Positions 9,692 through 37,980 of a stretch of 64,000 nucleotides of DNA are shown piece after piece. The stretch's first letter is position 1. Each line of letters starts with the position of its first letter. Location: assembly GCF_932294415.1 (NCBI RefSeq), contig NC_065538.1, positions 23,144,957-23,208,956 on the forward strand, given 5' to 3'. The stretch is from Quercus robur (lineage: Eukaryota; Streptophyta; Magnoliopsida; Fagales; Fagaceae). The position numbers and the translations under genes are program-made. Under the pieces are notes generated by a model that saw nothing but the letters and a program-made list of their open reading frames with translations, made no database searches and was not told the origin of the DNA.

Positions 9692-9701
9692 CCAATACCT
9701 G

Positions 9702-9979
9702 GGCAAAATTTGCCAAATAGTACGATTCTAAAAAAAATTTAGACGGATGGCATGCGTTTAAAGTTTATTAGTTAGTTGGACTATTTTTTGGATATCGAGT
9801 ATAGCAAAATCAACTTCCAGCCAAAATTGCTAAAATCGAGTATTGTAAACTCGATTTTGGCTAGAAGTCGATTTTACTGTACTTGATTTCCAAAAAACAG
9901 TCCAACTAACTAATAAACTTTGAACGCATGCCATCCACCTAAAATTTTCCCAATATTATACTGTTTGGCAAATTTTGCC
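9702..9979. mobile_element. MULE-type MITE, 278 bp, 10-bp target duplication
   Basis: It starts GGCAAAATTTGCC and ends GGCAAATTTTGCC, with inverted arms of about 100 bp. The flanks CCAATACCTG (9692-9701) and CCAATACATG (9980-9989) form a 10-bp target duplication with one mismatch. A relative with the same ends lies at 27937-28300. Confidence 0.8.
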
Positions 9980-9989
9980 CCAATACATG

Positions 9990-16319: not shown

Positions 16320-17110
16320 AAGCCTTTGTTTGGGATGAGTGAATGAAATGGAATGGAAAAGAAGGAAAAAAAATAATTTTAGAATATTCTTCACTTCCCT
16401 TATTTGGAAGTTTTAATGGAAGGAAAGGAAAGTTCATTCCCCTTGTGGGAGTTTAAGGCCTCATTTGCGAGGAGGGAATGGAATGGAATGGAAAGGAATG
16501 AAAATAATAATTTTAGAATATTCTTCCCTTCCCTTATTTTGAGAGTTTTAATGGATGGAATAGAAAACTCATTCCCTTGTTTGGGAGTTTAAGTAGGAGG
16601 GAATGGAATGGGTAGGAGGAAACACTCATTCTTCTCTATTCCCTTAAGTTTCATTTGGGAGTTCATAAGGAAATGGAATGAGTAGGAGGACACACTCATT
16701 CCTCTCTATTCCCTTAGGAATGGAATGATCATAAGGGAACGGAAATGGATGGAATGTATTTATGTAAAGGAAATGAATGGAATGAAATGGAATTAAGTAT
16801 TCTTAATTGGATGTTTTAAAATAAAGGAATGAAAATAAATGAAAATAAATAGAATGTAAGTAATCTTGTCTGGGAGTAACATGGAGAGAATGTAATGGAA
16901 TCATTTTATGTCAATATTACTATTAGACCCCTATTTTAAAATAAAGTGTTGAATATATAGAAGTATTTTGAGAGTTTTAGTAAAAAATTCATTAAATCTA
17001 ATTTCATTCCCTTCTATTCTTTCCAATTTTAGAAGAATGAAAAATTTGAGATTTTAAAGGAATAGAGAGGAATGAGTGTTCCCTCCTACCCATTCCATTC
17101 TCTCTAGTTT
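16320..17110. repeat. GGAATGGAATGG-rich repeat block
   Basis: A unit of about 130 bp (GGAATGGAATGG..., TTTTAGAATATTCTTC, CCTTATTT, GTTTTAATGGA) occurs at about 16326 and 16458, with a weaker third copy. An inverted version (GAGGAATGAGTGTTCCCTCC, ATTCCATTC) lies near 17060-17100. It may be a fold-back transposon of unknown family. Confidence 0.5.
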
Positions 17111-17382: not shown

Positions 17383-17390
17383 ATCTCAAC
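17383..17390. repeat. 8-bp target-site duplication of hAT (left)
   Basis: ATCTCAAC directly before the left terminus. The identical octamer lies directly after the right terminus (24328-24335). Confidence 0.95.
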
Positions 17391-17572
17391 TAGGGCTGTC
17401 TAGCGGTTCTTTGACCCGCCCAAACCGACCGGGTCCGACCGACCCGCATCCCAACGGGTGAACCCGATATCTGTAGTGAGTCGGATTCGGGTGTGTTTCT
17501 TTCAAAACCCGAATAATCGGGTCGGGTAGCGGTTTAAGGAAGAAAAAACCCGCATTACCCGACCCGACCGAT

Positions 17573-17612
<40 letters not shown>

Positions 17613-18090
17613 TAATTCAGCACTCAGTTCAGTTTACCCGTGAAGACTGAGTTGCTGTCCAGGACTGAAATGAGGAGACAGAGACTGATTGGACTTAAAG
17701 CACTCAGTTTTTTTTTGTTGTTTTACACGCTAAGTTCAAATCAGCCTACTTGCACCTAAGATTTTTACACACCAAGAAATCATGGCCGTCCGATTTGAAC
17801 GTGATCAACGGTTAAAGGAGCACTCAGTTTTTTTTTGTTTTACACGTTAAGTTCAAACTTCAAATCAGCCTACTTGCTCAGTTGCTCCTAATATTTTTAC
17901 ACACAAAGCAATCATGGCCGTTGATTTGAGCGTGATCAACGGTCTTGATCCTTCTGAAGACCAACAAAATCATTCCAACTTCCAAGTTCCCAACGCAAAA
18001 GAAAATCCCACAAATCTCTCTTCAGAAAATCCCACAAATCTCTCTTCATCTTCAGACTCTCAGAGGTGCAGAACGGCTAACCCTCACCTC
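17391..18090 (+). repeat. hAT 5'-end tandem repeat, unit 1
   Basis: This 700-bp unit begins with the terminal inverted repeat. It differs from units 2 and 3 by a longer poly(A) run (about 34 against about 22 bp) and T for C at the eleventh base. It contains an inner duplication of about 120 bp: CACTCAGTTTTTTTTTG...GATCAACGGT at about 17701 and again at about 17820. Confidence 0.95.
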
Positions 18091-18778
18091 TAGGGCTGTC
18101 CAGCGGTTCTTTGACCCGCCCAAACCGACCGGGTCCGACCGACCCGCATCCCAACGGGTGAACCCGATATCTGTAGTGAGTCGGATTCGGGTGTGTTTCT
18201 TTCAAAACCCGAATAATCGGGTCGGGTAGCGGTTTAAGGAAGAAAAAACCCGCATTACCCGACCCGACCGATATTTAAAAAAAAAAAAAAAAAAAAAAGG
18301 TAATTCAGCACTCAGTTCAGTTTACCCGTGAAGACTGAGTTGCTGTCCAGGACTGAAATGAGGAGACAGAGACTGATTGGACTTAAAGCACTCAGTTTTT
18401 TTTTGTTGTTTTATACGCTAAGTTCAAATCAGCCTACTTGCACCTAAGATTTTTACACACCAAGAAATCATGGCCGTCCGATTTGAACGTGATCAACGGT
18501 TAAAGGAGCACTCAGTTTTTTTTTGTTTTACACGTTAAGTTCAAACTTCAAATCAGCCTACTTGCTCAGTTGCTCCTAATATTTTTACACACAAAGCAAT
18601 CATGGCCGTTGATTTGAGCGTGATCAACGGTCTTGATCCTTCTGAAGACCAACAAAATCATTCCAACTTCCAAGTTCCCAACGCAAAAGAAAATCCCACA
18701 AATCTCTCTTCAGAAAATCCCACAAATCTCTCTTCATCTTCAGACTCTCAGAGGTGCAGAACGGCTAATCCTCACCTC
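18091..18778 (+). repeat. hAT 5'-end tandem repeat, unit 2
   Basis: A 688-bp unit starting with TAGGGCTGTCC. It is joined directly to the CCTCACCTC that ends unit 1. Only a few substitutions separate it from its neighbours (for example TTATACGC for TTACACGC). Confidence 0.95.
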
Positions 18779-18959
18779 TAGGGCTGTCCAGCGGTTCTTT
18801 GACCCGCCCAAACCGACCGGGTCCGACCGACCCGCATCCCAACGGGTGAACCCGATATCTGTAGTGAGTCGGATTCGGGTGTGTTTCTTTCAAAACCCGA
18901 ATAATCGGGTCGGGTAGCGGTTTAAGGAAGAAAAAACCCGCATTACCCGACCCGACCGA

Positions 18960-18990
<31 letters not shown>

Positions 18991-19468
18991 TAATTCAGCA
19001 CTCAGTTCAGTTTACCCGTGAAGACTGAGTTGCTGTCCAGGACTGAAATGAGGAGACAGAGACTGATTGGACTTAAAGCACTCAGTTTTTTTTTGTTGTT
19101 TTACACGCTAAGTTCAAATCAGCCTACTTGCACCTAAGATTTTTACACACCAAGAAATCATGGCCGTCCGATTTGAATGTGATCAACGGTTAAAGGAGCA
19201 CTCAGTTTTTTTTTGTTTTACACGTTAAGTTCAAACTTCAAATCAGCCTACTTGCTCAGTTGCTCCTAATATTTTTACACACAAAGCAATCATGGCCGTT
19301 GATTTGAGCGTGATCAACGGTCTTGATCCTTCTGAAGACCAACAAAATCATTCCAACTTCCAAGTTCCCAACGCAAAAGAAAATCCCACAAATCTCTCTT
19401 CAGAAAATCCCACAAATCTCTCTTCATCTTCAGACTCTCAGAGGTGCAGAACGGCTAACCCTCACCTC
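18779..19468 (+). repeat. hAT 5'-end tandem repeat, unit 3
   Basis: This unit of about 690 bp starts with the terminal repeat and runs into the unique hAT sequence after CTCACCTC at 19461-19468. Its internal ATG near 19292 opens a 203-codon frame to 19903. That frame does not join in phase to the transposase, so I read it as leader sequence. Confidence 0.9.
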
Positions 19469-20630
19469 ACCTCAAATCATAGTCAAAAATTTCCACTTCC
19501 CCAAGCCATGGCCGGTTACCCTCTCTCAGCCTCAAGAGACCCTCAACCCTCATCTCTTTCTCTTTTAAATAGATCTGATTTTTCTCTCTGTTCCACTTTT
19601 CTCTGCTCTCTAGTCTCAAGGGCTGATTCAAAATCCCTCTTTTATTTTGGAACCCTTGACTTCAATCCAACTCTCCAAGTCTCCAACGGACCAAACACCA
19701 AACCTTGCTGCCTTGCTGGTTCATCTTCACACGTATCCCGCGCTGAGCAGAGGATCGGAGTGTTGTCGCTGGTCTGTCGCACCAAGGGCACCGTCCGCCG
19801 CCTCTCAGCCTTCAAGCACGGCGACCGCGGTTTTGCTTTCCTCGTCAACAGGTTCGTGTCGCTCAAACAAATCTGTTCTTTCTCTTTTTTATTAGTTATT
19901 TAGATTCTTCAGTTCTGATTGTTTTTTAAAGCTTTTAAGATTATTTGATTGCCTTATTGTATAAAGAATGGTAAGGATTTAACGAATAATACAGACACCA
20001 AACAAAGTTTGTAACTTTTTGAAGTAAAAAAATATTTGAGGTGACGGATTGTGATTGGTGCTCAAGCACCTCCTTTCCATGTAAGAACACTGTGATGTTG
20101 AGGAAGTTTGTTCAAAAACCATTGGCTATGTGTAACTAAGCAAAGTAAAAAATAAAAATAAAAAAAATAAAAAAAAAAAAAAAAAGAGAAAAAAAAAAAG
20201 AGAGAACTAAAGACAATGAGAGTCTCAGATCACTTCAACTGAAGTTGTGTCTATGATCTGGTTTTATAAAAAAAAAAAAAAAAAAAAGATTTGGGAAAAT
20301 GTATTGGGCCTCTATGTTTTGAACAAGGACAATTTCTTTCACATGCTTATAGTTATATCAGTTCTTAGTTTTGTCTTGACTCTTAAACAATGCATACTTG
20401 CAATTTAAATGAAATCATGAAGTGCCATGTAATTTACCTTGATACAGAACACTGAGTGTTAAATGAAATCAGTACTAGTGAAGTAAATTCTTATGCATAA
20501 TGATATTTCTTATTTTACAAAGCTCCAATGTATGTGATTTTGCCCTTTAAGAGGTCAACTACAATGATCTTTCTTAGTATTAGTTTTTTTATGGTTGTTT
20601 GTTTTTGCTTAAATTTGATGTCTTTAGGTC

Positions 20631-22952
20631 ATGGAACCCTCTACTGATGCCCCCCCTTCCCAAACAACACCCGCTGCCCAAGCTGGACCTGCTGTCCAAG
20701 CTGAACCTGTTCCCACTCCAACAAATGCTGAGGCACTTCCACCTAGACCTAGTGATAAAACCAAAGTGAGTGAGATAGCTGCTGATTGTGGTAATAATAG
20801 GAAAAAGTCTAGTGCCTGGGATCATTTTGAAAAAATAAAAATGAGTGAGGGTCAATTTAAGGCTGTTTGCCATTATTGCCAAAAAACTTACCGTGCTAAT
20901 AGTAAGGGTCATGGTACTACTAATTTATTGAATCATACACCAAACTGTGTTAAGAACCCTAATAGAGCTTCACTTAAAGGGCAACAAACCTTAGCATTTG
21001 AACCCAAAATGAATGGGGAGGAAGGGTTTAAGCTTGTACCAACAGCCTTTACTGTTGAGGCTTCTAGGAAGGCACTCGCAGAAATGATTATAATAGACGA
21101 GTTGCCTTTTAGGTTTGTTGAAGGGTATGGGTTTCAAAAATATTCAACAACCTTACAACCTAAGTTGCAAATCAGGGATATCACATCTCGTCAAACTGTG
21201 GCTAGAGATGTGATTAGCATTTATGGTGTTGAGAGAGAGAAACTAAGGGAAGCCTTGAAAGGTCGTAGGGTGTGCCTTACTACGGACACATGGACTAGTA
21301 TTCAAAATCTGAATTATATGTCCCTCACAGGTCATTTTATTGATGATGATTGGAACTTGCATAAAAGAATTTTGAATTTTTGTCAAGTGGAAGACCATAG
21401 GGGGGAGACTATAGGTAGAAAGATTGAGATGTGTCTCCGTGAGTGGGGTGTTGATGGCATATTCACCTTGACAGTGGATAATGCTTCCTCTAATGGTGCT
21501 ACCATTAAATTTTTACAAACAGTAACTAAAGATTGGAAAGGGACTATTTTAGAACATGAGTTCTTGCACATGAGGTGTTGTGCACATATCTTAAATCTGA
21601 TTGTGGGAGATGGTATGAAAGAAATTGATCCGTCCATTGCTAGGGTGCGTGAAGCAGTGAGGTATGTGAAGTCCTCACCAAATAGAAATCAAACTTTTAG
21701 GAGTATTATGGAGATATTAGGTATTGAATCCAAATGTTTACTAAGTCTTGATGTACCAACTAGGTGGAACTCTACCTATCTCATGTTAGATACTGCTGAA
21801 AAATTTGAGAAAGTGTTCCTAAGAATGGACTTTGAGGATGATAGCTATTCTTCATACTTTTTGAACAAGGAAAATAGTGGTGGTTTGGGATCTCCTTGTG
21901 GGGTTGATTTTCAAAATTGTAGGACATTTGTGGGTTTCTTGAAACTTTTTTACAATGCAACTAAAAAGTTCTCCGGTTCTTTGTATGTGACTTCAAATAC
22001 TTTCTTTGATGAGATGTTTGTAATTCAAGAAAATATTGCTCATTTAATTAAATCTCAAAATCATCTCTTGAAAAACATGGCAACTAAAATGGAAGCTAAG
22101 TTTGAAAAGTACTGGGGGAAAGGGGATAAAATTAATAAGCTTTTGTATGTGGCTGTGGTGCTGGATCCAAGGAAGAAAATGAGGTTTTTGAAGTTTTCTT
22201 TTTTTGAAATTTATGGGGATGAAGTGGCTAATGAGATGGTTGACTTGGTGGGGAGTTTTATGGCTAGGTTGTATGATGATTACTCTAGGGTTGATTCACC
22301 AAATGTGGTGCTACCAAGTGAGAATGAGAGGACACACATGGAAGGTGATACAGTTGGTTGTAGTGATCCGTATGCAATGGTTAATTCACGATATGAGCGG
22401 TTTTTAGAGGTTGAGAAGTCTATAGGATGTAGCAATGAGATGGAAAAATATTTGGCTGAAAATTGTGAGAGTAGAAGGGATGTGAAATTTGAGATTTTGG
22501 GGTGGTGGAAAGCCAATTCAGATAGGTACCCAGTGCTGTCCAAAATGGCTAGGGATGTGCTGGCTGTACCTGTTTCTATGGTTGCTTCTGAATCGGCTTT
22601 TAGTACCGGAGGGCGCATACTTGATCCATTTCGAAGTTCACTCTCCCCTCTCATGGTTCAAAATCTTATTTGTGCTCAAAACTGGCTGCAAGCCCGTGTC
22701 CCAATTTCTTTTCGCAAGTCAAAGGACGAGATGGAGGCCTTGGAGGATGAATTTCATGAATTAGGTAATATGTTTAACTTCTAATCTTCTTGTTTACTAA
22801 GTGTTATTAAATGAGTCATATACTTGAGCAAAATTTAATCTATTGTCTCAATTTTTTCTTTTCTAGTTTTAAATCAAACAACAACAGCAGCAAATTCTAG
22901 TTCCTGTTCAAACAAAGGTGGTACTCGTACCACAGTCAATATTGATGAATGA
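20631..22952 (+). CDS. hAT transposase, BED zinc finger, two coding exons
   Basis: Cut-and-paste transposase acting in the nucleus on the element's terminal repeats. Exon 1 runs 20631-22764 and exon 2 runs 22867-22952. The intron (22765-22866; GTAATA...TTTTCTAG) joins in phase and replaces a six-residue read-through tail with 28 residues, giving 739 aa. Domains: Pro/Ala-rich N-terminus (1-45); BED finger with C80, C83, H102, C106; RNase H-like core with D219 (TTDTWTS) and D283 (TVDNASSN); CCAHILNL at 316-323; TRWNST at 378-382; and the C-terminal dimerisation block with catalytic E654 (ASESAFSTGG). All key residues are present and there are no stops. It belongs to the Ac-like/RICESLEEPER type. 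A splice acceptor TTTAG lies four bases before the ATG, so an upstream 5' UTR exon ending near 19851 (CAACAG|GTTCGT) is likely. Confidence 0.93.
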
Positions 22953-23510
22953 TCACTGATTGGGTATGTTTCTGCCTTTATAATTTTTGTTCATATTGGT
23001 GTCCCTTTTGGTTATTCTGTAGCTGTTATTCTGTCTTTATATAGTATTGATAAATATTTTTCCCCTTGTATTGTAGGAGGATTGAAGGTCGCCTTTTGTA
23101 TAGGAGGCAGTTTTTTTGGATATATTTTGAAGCTTTTTTGGACAGATGTGTAGCTTTTCTAATTATAATTATACATGAACTCTTGTCTTGCTTAGAGGAA
23201 GGAAAACTTAGCATCTGTGTAGGCTTTCCTCTCTATAAGTTATGGACATGTTAACTATAGAAAATAGAGTAGTTATTTACTGCCTTAGGAAAGCTATTTT
23301 TTGGAAATACTTAATAGTATTTCATAGTTGTAACTTATTATATATACTGCTGGGAACTGCCTACTGATTTGGTAGTTTATTGCCTTGTGCAGTAACTGCC
23401 TTCTCTGCTGCCTCTATGGCTTTATATATCAAATTATGAAGATGATGTATTTTTAGTAGTGCTTGTAGCCTATGTGGTTCTGGAAATTTGTTTGATGTGT
23501 GGAATGGTTG

Positions 23511-23800
23511 GTAGGTACTGCCTAGGCCTAAAGGCTTGACAGATTGATGAATGTGGAAACAAAATGGTACTGCCTAGGCCTTAAGGCTTAGGCAATTTGG
23601 AAAATATTTGTTATAAATTTATAATGTGTGGATGATGAAAAGGTGGTAACAAAAATGGTAATTGTGTTTTATTGATGAATGTGGAAACAAAATGGTACTG
23701 CCCAGGCCTCAAGGCTTAGGCAATTTTCAAAATATTTGTTATAATGTGTGGAATGTGGATGATGAACAGGTGGTAACAAAATGATAATTGTGTATTTGTG
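23511..23800. repeat. tandem repeats in hAT 3' region
   Basis: A unit of about 125 bp (ATGAATGTGGAAACAAAATG, GTACTGCC[T/C]AGGCC, GGCTTAGGCAATTT, AATATTTGTTATAA, GGTGGTAACAAAA) occurs twice in full and once in part. The GCCTAGGCC core is palindromic. Confidence 0.8.
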
Positions 23801-24327
23801 TTTTTATCTATTTGATTAATGCTTAGGTTTTACATTCTATTGATATTTAACATGTATCCAGATTTTACTCTGAAGTCATACTCAATGAAGGCCCATTTTA
23901 CATACTTTGAATTCATATTTTGAAATTTGAATTGATAATGTATTGGTATTTTACATTCTGGGAAGTATGAATTTGGAGTTTTGGACAAATTATAGTAGAG
24001 TTGAAGGCCCATTTTAAAAGAAATTTAGTAAAAAACAGGCCCAATCTGATATGTTAAGATTCAAAAACTCTTAATTCGTTGAAAAGTCCAATAATTTCGG
24101 CCAAAAGGCCCAAAAAAATTAATTTCAATAAAATTTACAGAAAAGGCCCAATAAGAGGTCCAACCCGTTCAAACCGATGATCCGACCCGTTCAAACCGAT
24201 GATCTGACCCGGCGGGTTTAACCCATATTATAGATGATTGCGGGTCCGTTTTTCAGTGACCCGACCCAATCGGGTCGAGTGCGGGTTGGGCCCAAACCCG
24301 GGCTGACTCGACCCGTGGACAGCCCTA

Positions 24328-24335
24328 ATCTCAAC
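24328..24335. repeat. 8-bp target-site duplication of hAT (right)
   Basis: ATCTCAAC, identical to 17383-17390. Confidence 0.95.
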
Positions 24336-27936: not shown

Positions 27937-28300
27937 GGCAAAATTTGCCAAATAGTAGCTTTTTAGAAAAAATTTTGCTACATAACATGCGGATGAAACA
28001 TTTTAGTAAGTTGGACTGTTTTTGGAACTCGAGTTCCAACCCATTCCCTCTTGGATGAAGTCTGACATGAACCAAAAAAAAAAAGAAAAAAAAAAAAGAG
28101 GTGGAACTCAAGTCTCTTTTGTACAGAACTCGAGTTTCCTAAACTCGAGTTCCGTGTGAAAAATCTTAGAACTCGAGTTTCAAAAACTTAAGTTTCATTT
28201 AAAAAAAAAAAAAAAAAACAGTCTAACTAACTAAAATGTTTCCTTTACATGCTTTTTTGCTCATATTTTTCCAAAAAGATGTTTTTCTGCAAATTTTGCC
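27937..28300. mobile_element. MULE-type MITE, 364 bp, perfect 10-bp target duplication
   Basis: It starts GGCAAAATTTGCC and ends GCAAATTTTGCC. CACAATAGTC flanks it at 27927-27936 and 28301-28310. Inner sequence has repeated AACTCGAGTT motifs. It is the same family as the element at 9702-9979. Confidence 0.85.
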
Positions 28301-28361: not shown

Positions 28362-28515
28362 AGGTAAGAACTAAGAAGTTCTCTCCCTATTCCTCTGAAA
28401 GGTAAGAGCAGTGCTGGAACATTACATCTGATCGGAAGATCAATCATTCTAGAATTCTTGCCAAATACATTCAGGGACCCATCTTCCATACCAATTCAGC
28501 AAAAGTGCATAGCGT

Positions 28516-28880
28516 GCTAAAATATGTGCCACTACATATGGCCGAGTCCCTTTCAAAAAAATTAATAAAAACTGCCTACTTTGTATTTTCTTTTTTAAAT
28601 GCTAAAATACGTGCCACTATATGGCCGAGTCCCTTTCAAAAAAATTAATAAAAACTGCCTACTTTGTATTTTTTTTTTTTAAATGCTAAAATATGTGCCA
28701 CTATATGGCCGAGTCCCTTTCAAAAAAATTAATAAAAAACTGCCTATTTTGTATTTTTTTTAAAAATGCTAAAATATGTGCCACTATATGGCCGAGTGCC
28801 TTTCAAAAAAAGAAAAAAAAAATTGCTAAAATATTTGCCGCCATTATGACCGAGTCCCTTTCAAAACTACCTCCTTCCTA
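28516..28880. repeat. tandem array, about 85 bp x 4-5
   Basis: The unit GCTAAAATATGTGCCACTA, TATGGCCGAGTCCCTTTC, AATTAATAAAAACTGCCTAC recurs near 28516, 28601, 28686, 28768 and, shortened, 28824. It ends about 310 bp before the next ATG, so it lies in the promoter region of the dehydrogenase gene. Confidence 0.9.
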
Positions 28881-29187
28881 CTTTGTATTTAAGAAAAAGA
28901 AACAGACAAACCCTTTTAAATCAGTTCTAAGTTTTCTGCTATGTTTATTTATTTTGATCTCCCACCGGATGTGGTGGTGAACTTACTTGCTCTTGACAGG
29001 GCAGCAACTTCTTGTAACAGACTTATTGCTGTGGTTGGTTAGTGTTTTAATATATTACCCCTTTAACCAAAAAAAAAAAAAAAAATCTTTTATCGATAAA
29101 AAAATCATTTAATAAACTTCTTACTTTTGTTTTGGGCATTAATAAACTTCCTAACCTCATTTTCTCAGAACCATCCATGATCCATCA

Positions 29188-30771
29188 ATGGCTACCGAAG
29201 ACAACGAAGTCGAAGACCACCGTCCTCTCGTCCTTATACACCACCTCCCTTCATTCAAACTTCCACTCCAAGACCGCTTGATCACCCACTTCCGCCTTTT
29301 CGACTCGCTGGCCTCCCCCGAGGCCTCCTCCGTACGCGCTCTCATCTGCGTCGGCCCCACGCCCGTCACCGCCGACACCCTCGACCACCTCCCTTCTCTG
29401 CGACTTGTCGTTGGCTCCAGCGCCGGCCTTGACCACGTCGACCTCGCCGAGTGCCGCCGTCGTGGCATTGCCGTCACCAATGCCGGCGACGCCAACTCTG
29501 AGAACGTGGCCGACTACGCCGTCGCGCTTTTGCTCGATGTTCTGCGCCGAGTTTCCGCTGCTGACCGATTTGTTCGCTCTGGTTTGTGGCCTCAAATGGG
29601 AGAGTACCCACTTGGCTGTAAGGTTAGTTTTGTTTTTTTGTTTTTTTTAGCACATCTGGATTGGTAGCTTTTTTTGTTAAAAACGACAAGCATAGTGAAT
29701 GACACAAAAAAAACATGTTCATAGTTGCTGAGGTAGCATCTGGTGATTGGTGTGTAATAAAGTGAATATTAAGGTTTTGTTATTGATCGAGAGGTGGTTA
29801 GCTGAGGCATGTCTCTTTGTCACTGTGTGGAACTTTTGTATAACATACAACTGAGATACGAAATACAGATCTAGATAAATTATGGTTGATTAGCTGGGAT
29901 TTTCAGTGGGATTAGCTTGGAAAGATTGAAAAAGAGAAGCAAGGGTATATAATTCAAAGCTACTAACCTTGTAAATATATTCATTTAGCTTGAAAGAGTA
30001 TAACTAGTATCTGTGTTTTGGGAATTGAATTCATTGTCATAGAAATTCAGAGCTGGTAAGAAACATACAGGGCCTTGATCAAGTGCTAGTGATGTGGTAG
30101 CCGCAGCTACTAAGTTACTAACCTTGTAAACATTAGAATAGTGTTGCTACAAATCTGGTTGTATTCACTAGTTATACTTGCATCTTGATTAAACTTAAAC
30201 ATTATATTATCCAATCGGTTCTTATATGAATTGGTTATGACTGCAGTTAGGGGGAAAACGAATTGGTATTGTGGGGCTGGGAAGTATTGGCTCTGAAGTT
30301 GCAAAAAGGCTTGTGGCATTTGGCTGCACAGTTGCATACAACTCGAGGAACAAGAAGCCATCTGTACTGTATCCTTACTATGCCAATGTCCATGACCTTG
30401 CTGTTAACAGTGATGTTCTTATTGTTTGCTGTGCGCTGACGAATGAAACTCACCATATAATCAACAAAGATGTTTTGACAGCATTGGGAAGGGAAGGGTT
30501 TATAATTAATGTTGGGCGCGGTGCTCTTGTTGATGAGAAAGAATTGGTGCAATTTTTGGTCCAAGGGGAGATTGGTGGTGCAGGTCTTGATGTGTTTGAG
30601 AACGAGCCTAATGTCCCAAAAGAGCTATTTGCCCTGGACAATGTTGTGTTGTCTCCACATCTTGCTATTTCAACTCCAGAATCCTTCGAAGCCTTGAACG
30701 AGGTGATTATAGCAAACTTGAAGGCTTTCTTTTCAAGTAAGCCTTTATTGTCGCCTTTCCAGCAGGAATGA
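29188..30771 (+). CDS. D-2-hydroxyacid dehydrogenase, hydroxy(phenyl)pyruvate reductase type
   Basis: It reduces small 2-oxoacids (hydroxypyruvate, glyoxylate or 4-hydroxyphenylpyruvate) with NAD(P)H, probably in the cytosol since no transit peptide is visible. Exon 1 is 29188-29622 and exon 2 is 30247-30771. The intron 29623-30246 (AAG|GTTAGT...CTGCAG) lies in phase 0. The 319-aa product is the usual family length (about 310-320). The split-catalytic-domain N-terminus (1-100) is followed by the Rossmann nucleotide-binding domain with GLGSIG at 155-160. Catalytic R236 (NVGRG), E265 (ENEP) and H283 (SPH) are all present. The ATG context CATCAATGGCTACC is shared with the partial copy at 37471. 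Codons in exon 1 are strikingly GC-rich compared with exon 2. I cannot separate HPPR from HPR3 by eye. Confidence 0.92.
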
Positions 30772-37093: not shown

Positions 37094-37470
37094 GCCCTTA
37101 GTATAAACTAAGGGGGGGAGATCCTTGTATGCAAACGAGAGAGAGAGCTCCTACCCTAGAGGAGAGAAAGTTTGTAAAATTAAGCATTGAATTCAATTTG
37201 TTTAATGGTGGAGTTTAAACCTATGTTATGCCTGACTTTGGTTAAGTTGGTTTTTTATTTTATTTTTTATTCATATTTCAAGGAAGGTTTGATTTGTTAA
37301 ATAAACCATCATAAACAAATTTAATGATTTTTATAATTCGTTTTCTCCATTTGGTGAATAACTCTAAACTATAAAGCTTGCCCACCATTAATAAAATACA
37401 ATCGTTAAAACCACTGCAAATTAAAGATTCCAGTTGACCCCCTCAAGGCGGCAAAGCCTTGCATCAATCA

Positions 37471-37968
37471 ATGGCTACCAAAGAAGAACAGCCACAAGTC
37501 TTGGAAAACAAAGAAGAACCAAAGGAGGAGAGTGAGCTACCCTTAGTTGTTGTGCTTCGTTCCAAAAACTTCAACCTTCCCCTTGAAGACCACTTACAGA
37601 GTCATTTCCACCTACTTGACCCAAATGACTCGCCTGATGAGTCGACCAAGTCCTTCCTATCTCGCCATGCCCACTCGGCTCGTGCCTTACTCTGCGTGGG
37701 CTTGACCCCTCTCATTGCTGACACCCTTGGTCCCCAACCTAGCCTGGAACTCGTGGTTGGGTCCAGCGCTGGTGTTGAACACATTGACCTTCACGAATGT
37801 CGCCGTCGTGGAATCATGGTCATCAATGCTAGTGCTGCCTTATCTGAGGACGTAGTTGACTATGCCGTGGCACTGTTGATTGATGTTCTGCGTCGAATAT
37901 CGGCTGCTGACCATTTTGTTCAAGGCAGGTTATGGCCTGTGAAAGGAGAACATCCACTTGGTTTCAAG
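37471..37968 (+). pseudogene. D-2-hydroxyacid dehydrogenase paralogue, exon 1 only
   Basis: The 166 codons correspond to exon 1 of the gene at 29188. Shared stretches include LCVG, VVGSSAG, ECRRRGI, DYAVALL and VLRR, and both end just after PLG[C/F]K at a GT donor (AAG|GTTTGT). I choose ATG 37471 because it matches the CAATCAATGGCTACC start of the other copy. It has an extra Glu-rich segment of about 15 residues near the start. No exon 2 with a GLGxxG loop is visible in the 9.5 kb before SEC6, so the nucleotide-binding and catalytic half is missing. The exon itself has no stop. Without splicing the frame ends at 37980 after three more residues. It is either a truncated duplicate or a gene whose second exon was lost. 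Confidence 0.8.
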
Positions 37969-37980
37969 GTTTGTTTTTGA

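Follow-up and report, generated by a model that had tools for sequence, protein, structure and literature searches.

A hAT transposon of Quercus robur with its left end in three direct tandem copies that each start exactly at the terminus

The window analysed here, a stretch of 64,000 nucleotides of Quercus robur DNA, contains a complete hAT element (window positions 17391-24327) whose left 690 bp are tripled in direct tandem, as units of 700, 688 and 690 bp that all open with TAGGGCTGTC and close with CTCACCTC. The reading we favour, to which we give roughly two chances in three, is that this is a young, structurally intact element that formerly had the ordinary 5.5-kb form with a single left end; that its left terminus, freed by transposase, was joined to a leader site in a sister or nested copy; and that unequal exchange then took two units to three. 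The initial annotation had described a hAT transposon with three left ends and one right end, and this description is borne out by the units, the ATCTCAAC duplication, the termini and the transposase. The features of the element are as follows.

17383..17390, no strand: left target-site duplication ATCTCAAC; the same 8 bp stand at 24328-24335
17391..18090, + strand: left-end unit 1, 700 bp, with the terminus, an ACCCG-rich subterminal stretch, an A34 run and part of the leader; T at position 11
18083..18090, no strand: CTCACCTC preceding inner terminus 2, the candidate leader target sequence; the exact junction occurs genome-wide only here and at 18771
18091..18778, + strand: left-end unit 2, 688 bp, with an A22 run and two private C-to-T changes
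18771..18778, no strand: CTCACCTC preceding inner terminus 3
18779..19468, + strand: left-end unit 3, 690 bp, with an A24 run and one private C-to-T change; joins the unique leader
19461..19468, no strand: CTCACCTC continuing into ACCTCAAATC, the undisturbed site, also found in relatives
19469..20630, + strand: remaining leader, with TATA-like TTTAAATAG at 19564 and a predicted intron at 19852-20627 (splice sites picked by eye)
20631..22784, + strand: hAT transposase, 717 aa, with zf-BED, hAT-like RNase-H and Dimer_Tnp_hAT domains
24143..24327, + strand: right subterminal stretch with ten ACCCG motifs, and right terminus GACAGCCCTA
24328..24335, no strand: right target-site duplication ATCTCAAC

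The target-site duplication is perfect (8 of 8 bp), and the short terminal inverted repeats, TAGGGCTGTC and GACAGCCCTA, resemble the ends of relatives, both in keeping with a hAT element. On the + strand of the window, TAGGGCTGTC is found at the three unit starts only, and GACAGCCCTA is found at a single place, the right end of the element (24318-24327). Counted from the starts of units 1, 2 and 3, the element measures 6937, 6237 and 5549 bp, which agrees with the 6.9-, 6.2- and 5.5-kb forms proposed earlier. Unit 3 passes into the unique leader just as the lone unit of single-unit relatives does. The sequence CCCTCACCTCACCTCAAATC is identical in five of the seven relatives displayed; L036 and L038 retain CTCACCTC and diverge right after it. 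The claim that each unit holds the whole leader did not hold, as 1,162 bp of leader (19469-20630), including the predicted 776-bp intron and the TATA-like box, lie outside the unit. A 203-codon open frame upstream of the transposase (19292-19903) overlaps unit 3 and the remaining leader; of eight copies compared, the window copy and L031 have it open, L032 carries a frameshift, and in the remaining five no start motif was detected. The frame is probably due to chance. No Rfam family matched at gathering scores.

The surroundings of the element contain other repeats. Just upstream lies an MITE-like inverted repeat (16597-17104; arms of 51 nt, 92% complementary), and a second MITE-like hairpin with 127-nt arms is found at 9701-9980, with a related single arm 18 kb off at 27937-28023. 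An 83-bp unit forms an array of about 3.5 copies at 28497-28826. Open frames at 29155-30771 and 37438-37980 resemble what we take to be two copies of a plant hydroxyacid (hydroxypyruvate/glyoxylate) reductase gene.

The transposase has the domains of a hAT enzyme, with matches to PF05699 (4.8e-31), PF14372 (2.6e-26) and PF02892 (5.9e-07), and its best solved relative by sequence is the Hermes transposase (E 4.6e-14). Its frame is open, and all four motifs that were sought, TDTWTS, VDNASS, RWNSTY and SESAFS, are kept; their putative roles as DDE catalytic residues are taken from Hermes, with which they align in part. ACCCG/CGGGT motifs number 12 in the first 185 bp of each unit and 10 in the right 185 bp, with a single one in the body from unit 3 to the right 185 bp. 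Since these motifs concentrate in the end 185 bp, a sequence that probably binds the transposase is present three times on the left side. Position 11 of the terminus is T in the outermost left end and C in the inner ends, in the right end and in all 17 relatives fetched for comparison. The same T is present at two other terminus sites of the genome, and therefore need not be harmful. We predict the inner left ends to be at least as good as the outer one, although the genome searches gave no sign that the inner ends have been used.

The evidence that carries the favoured reading is the position of the repeat boundary. Every repeat starts at base 1 of the terminus (TAGGG), with no base lost or added. 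The base C precedes the outer and inner termini alike, so that possible microhomology amounts to 1 bp and the boundary is fixed to within 1 bp. By our own estimate, about 2 positions in several thousand would bring a randomly placed boundary to the terminus in this way. Together with the 1-bp microhomology, this exact start favours an end made by transposase over random slippage. The initial annotation had also pointed to the exact joining of units 2 and 3 at the terminus. The TAGGG start is indeed exact, while the CTCACCTC that precedes it adds no independent evidence, because these 8 bp close the unit before and would be present after a tandem duplication of any kind; we therefore rejected CTCACCTC as proof of a target-site duplication.

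The strongest rival is an ordinary tandem duplication in which transposase had no part, arising by replication slippage, microhomology repair or unequal exchange and meeting the terminus at its left boundary by chance. Tandem duplications are common here, and eight others were found in the element and its relatives: two inside the units (spacing about 132 bp and 24 bp), two near the right end (spacing 128 bp and 22 bp), one internal duplication each in L033 and L037, and terminal duplications in L056 and L061. None of the eight is bounded by the terminus: the right-end duplication of L056 has its boundary 14 bp short of it, and that of L061 lies about 20-24 bp outside, at a GACC microhomology. 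L061 (G000:C2:7878100-7880300) is hAT-related and has three tandem right termini, each followed by the same flank of about 20 bp, which shows that multi-ended elements can also arise by ordinary duplication. It is because of L061 that we still give this explanation some weight, and the liability of the family to such duplications weighs against the favoured reading. The step from two to three units is, moreover, most likely of this ordinary kind. Set against the exact start at the terminus, the 1 bp of microhomology and the absence of a terminus boundary in the other eight cases, we nevertheless consider ordinary duplication an unlikely explanation. The earlier interpretation of end duplication mediated by transposase or repair, as opposed to slippage, is thus partly supported by the exact start and by the eight dissimilar duplications.

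A diverged relative provides four same-strand left ends within 28 kb (G000:C6:24444797-24472507, L057-L060), three of which match the unit at 65-67% over its first ~180 bp. All four have the same flank outside the terminus, and because the copies share host flank, this cluster is probably a tandem block duplication carrying the element. L056, L061 and the C6 cluster were considered as candidates for a second case and rejected, as none contains an exact-terminus junction.

The initial annotation had counted three near-identical units of about 690 bp that begin with the terminal repeat, and the units indeed differ by four substitutions and in their poly-A runs (34, 22 and 24 in units 1, 2 and 3). 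The substitutions are at position 11 (unit 1), 336 and 691 (unit 2) and 410 (unit 3); an alignment with the six relatives L031-L036 shows each of them to be a derived C-to-T change that is found in a single unit and in no relative. Such a C-to-T pattern would be expected of a methylated, silenced transposon. These differences bear on the possibility of an assembly artefact, in which the real genome would have one unit. Near-identical 0.7-kb repeats with long poly-A runs are difficult to assemble. However, the window is free of any N, the poly-A lengths differ among the units, the boundaries fall exactly at the terminus, and the unit-private substitutions, absent from all six relatives, weaken the concern as far as sequence comparison can; we regard an artefact as very improbable.

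The same comparison speaks to the source of the units. Leaving out gapped columns, units differ pairwise at 2 or 3 of 688-690 columns, and comparison of each with L032, the nearest relative, gives 6 or 7 differences in 684 columns. One derived change is common to all three units and found in none of the six relatives. The window copy, represented by unit 3 and the remainder of the element, shows 27 changes of its own over 5,323 gap-free columns. Because the units are closer to each other than to the six relatives and share this derived change, they most likely come from the element's own lineage, by a triplication that would postdate the split from those relatives. Another genomic copy as donor is not favoured, considering that 2-3 substitutions in 688-690 columns separate the units and 6 or more separate them from any of the six relatives. 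We withheld a date for the triplication, as the changes are few and gene conversion is possible.

The suggested search of the host genome for one-, two- and three-unit copies (assembly of 785.7 Mb, 42 contigs) returned, among the candidates scored, single-unit copies and no other two- or three-unit copy. The unit query gave 48 match rows, with 40 of 81 candidates scored; six rows are inner pieces of copies and 42 begin at query base 1 to 6. Three of these left ends belong to the window element, and all 39 elsewhere are single among the candidates scored. A further multi-left-end copy was found neither by the one-unit query (33 of 651 candidates scored) nor by the right-end query (40 of 353 scored). 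In addition, we searched for the left terminus with the pattern TAGGGCTGTCCAGCG, allowing up to one mismatch and reading neighbours by eye, a search that more diverged ends escape. It found 98 sites (control 1), and at this threshold none of the 95 sites outside the window element has a same-strand neighbour within 6 kb. Among the 14 longest-matching other left ends (at least 367 query bases), there were no derived two- or three-unit copies and no solo left ends, all 14 having their own right end. For the right end, the pattern CCGTGGACAGCCCTA (up to one mismatch) gave 900 termini genome-wide (control 5) versus the 98 (control 1) of the left, an excess that suggests many non-autonomous relatives with such termini.

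For comparison, 17 places of ~10 kb each were fetched, none of which has a second left unit. At least seven of the eight target-site bases are kept in 12 of the 17, with 8/8 in nine (L031, L032, L033, L036, L038, L039, L040, L041, L044) and 7/8 in three (L034, L035, L045). Target sites are poorer in L042 and L047 (6), L043 (4) and L046 (1), and the right end of L037 lies beyond the fetched stretch. The nearest copies, L031 and L032 (98%), are single-unit 5.5-kb elements with perfect 8-bp target-site duplications. That a multi-unit left end is a general trait of the family is hardly credible and not supported in the Q. robur assembly: the element is intact within a perfect target-site duplication and so could have inserted in its present form, but the 39 other left ends among the candidates scored and the 95 outside terminus sites with up to one mismatch speak against it.

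The inner junction is confined to the window element as well. The exact succession of CTCACCTC and TAGGGCTG occurs twice in the genome, both times within the window element, and the junction pattern CTCACCTCTAGGGCTG has no exact match beyond these two junctions; allowing one mismatch adds six sites and brings the total to eight, versus seven for the reversed pattern.

How the favoured reading would account for these junctions can be set out in a few steps. During hAT insertion, the target is cut with an 8-bp stagger and its left half receives the left terminus of the element. Here, transposase would have freed the left terminus of a single-left-end 5.5-kb element, and the freed terminus would have been joined to CTCACCTC in a copy of the element, most simply that on the sister chromatid, at a point some 690 bp in from that copy's left end. 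Two routes lead to this outcome. The first is a sister-chromatid (alternative) transposition in one step, in which a left end from one sister would pair with a right end from the other; the left end would enter a target inside the element to give flank-L-CTCACCTC-L-R-flank with the outer target-site duplication kept, while the right end would close a circle that is then lost. In the second, which takes two steps, the element would insert into its own leader to give a nested structure (L, then a complete L-R, then R), and the adjacent R segments would recombine to leave L-L-R. Both routes would retain the outer target-site duplication, as observed, and both yield the same product, so that they are indistinguishable here. 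Because both inner junctions are identical, we attribute the third unit to unequal exchange among the repeated left ends; this two-to-three step, like the joining reaction and its timing, is inferred.

We looked for traces of the partner product, which would normally be lost. In this one assembly, no reciprocal or nested junction was found above control: a right end followed by CTCACCTC gave no exact match and three one-mismatch matches, versus two in the control. With a left-end junction and no right-end partner, CTCACCTC can be called no more than a candidate target-site duplication, and it fits the target preference of the family weakly to moderately. Of the 13 family target sites that went into the matrix, 10 score higher than CTCACCTC, as do 597 of 5,542 element positions, and at target position 7 CTCACCTC has T, where 11 of the 13 sites have A. 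The matrix is small and symmetrised, with five of 18 places (window counted) left out for poor or missing target sites, and by this measure CTCACCTC would be an acceptable but not striking target.

We put forward more tentatively that a one-step sister-chromatid self-hit produced a stable element with three competing left ends, which would leave as 6.9-, 6.2- and 5.5-kb forms and shed solo left ends; this is possible, with the odds against it. In that one-step version, the inner ends may be favoured over the outermost, which mismatches the right end at position 11.

In the open-access literature searched, we found no direct precedent for hAT elements with repeated ends. The nearest parallel is the alternative transposition (reversed-ends and sister-chromatid) of maize Ac/Ds and dhAT (PMC3744419). 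There, a hAT end precisely initiates the tandem direct duplications obtained with Ac, no target-site duplication that would match the other side accompanies the inner end, and sister chromatids are proposed partners. Three natural dhAT duplication cases are also reported in maize, two of them with the said target-site pattern (PMC3744419). The oak element resembles these in that each repeat begins precisely at the transposon end and in that CTCACCTC precedes the inner left ends, as against ATCTCAAC after the right end. In contrast to the maize cases, in which the transposon and neighbouring DNA are duplicated, in exactly two copies, through the ends of two nearby elements, the oak element duplicates its own left end, in three copies, and the reciprocal product was not seen (PMC3744419). 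Three units thus depart from the two copies expected of alternative transposition, and later unequal exchange must be added.

A second parallel is provided by the Mutator-like elements with multiple long TIRs, of which type 3, as described in PMC3310237, also has an extra terminus at one end of a plant DNA transposon, a single target-site duplication around the whole and none for the inner terminus. Mutator-like elements belong to another superfamily, with target sites of 9-11 bp and long TIRs (PMC3310237), unlike the 8-bp target site and short termini of the oak element. At least one multi-TIR family has 13 tandem-TIR copies, compared with the one multi-left-end copy found here, and for the origin of such elements slippage, recombination and nested insertion are discussed and left unsettled in PMC3310237. 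The nested Ds and the chromosome-breaking double Ds of maize are likewise hAT elements with an extra copy of an end, and self-insertion is a possible first step in oak as well; they contain whole nested elements, whereas here the left end alone is repeated, in direct orientation (PMC3260210). For the B73 genome, PMC3260210 reports no double Ds. The oak structure, of which one copy was found, is a variant akin to the products of alternative transposition and to multi-TIR elements.

If it was transposase that made the junction, the locus would record a natural case of a hAT element turning on itself or on its sister copy, and such a route of self-attack, if true, places extra ends inside a single element. 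The locus allows one to ask which end a hAT transposase chooses when several near-identical ones are present, and it bears on the formation of multi-ended DNA transposons, which PMC3310237 left open for the multi-TIR Mutator-like elements.
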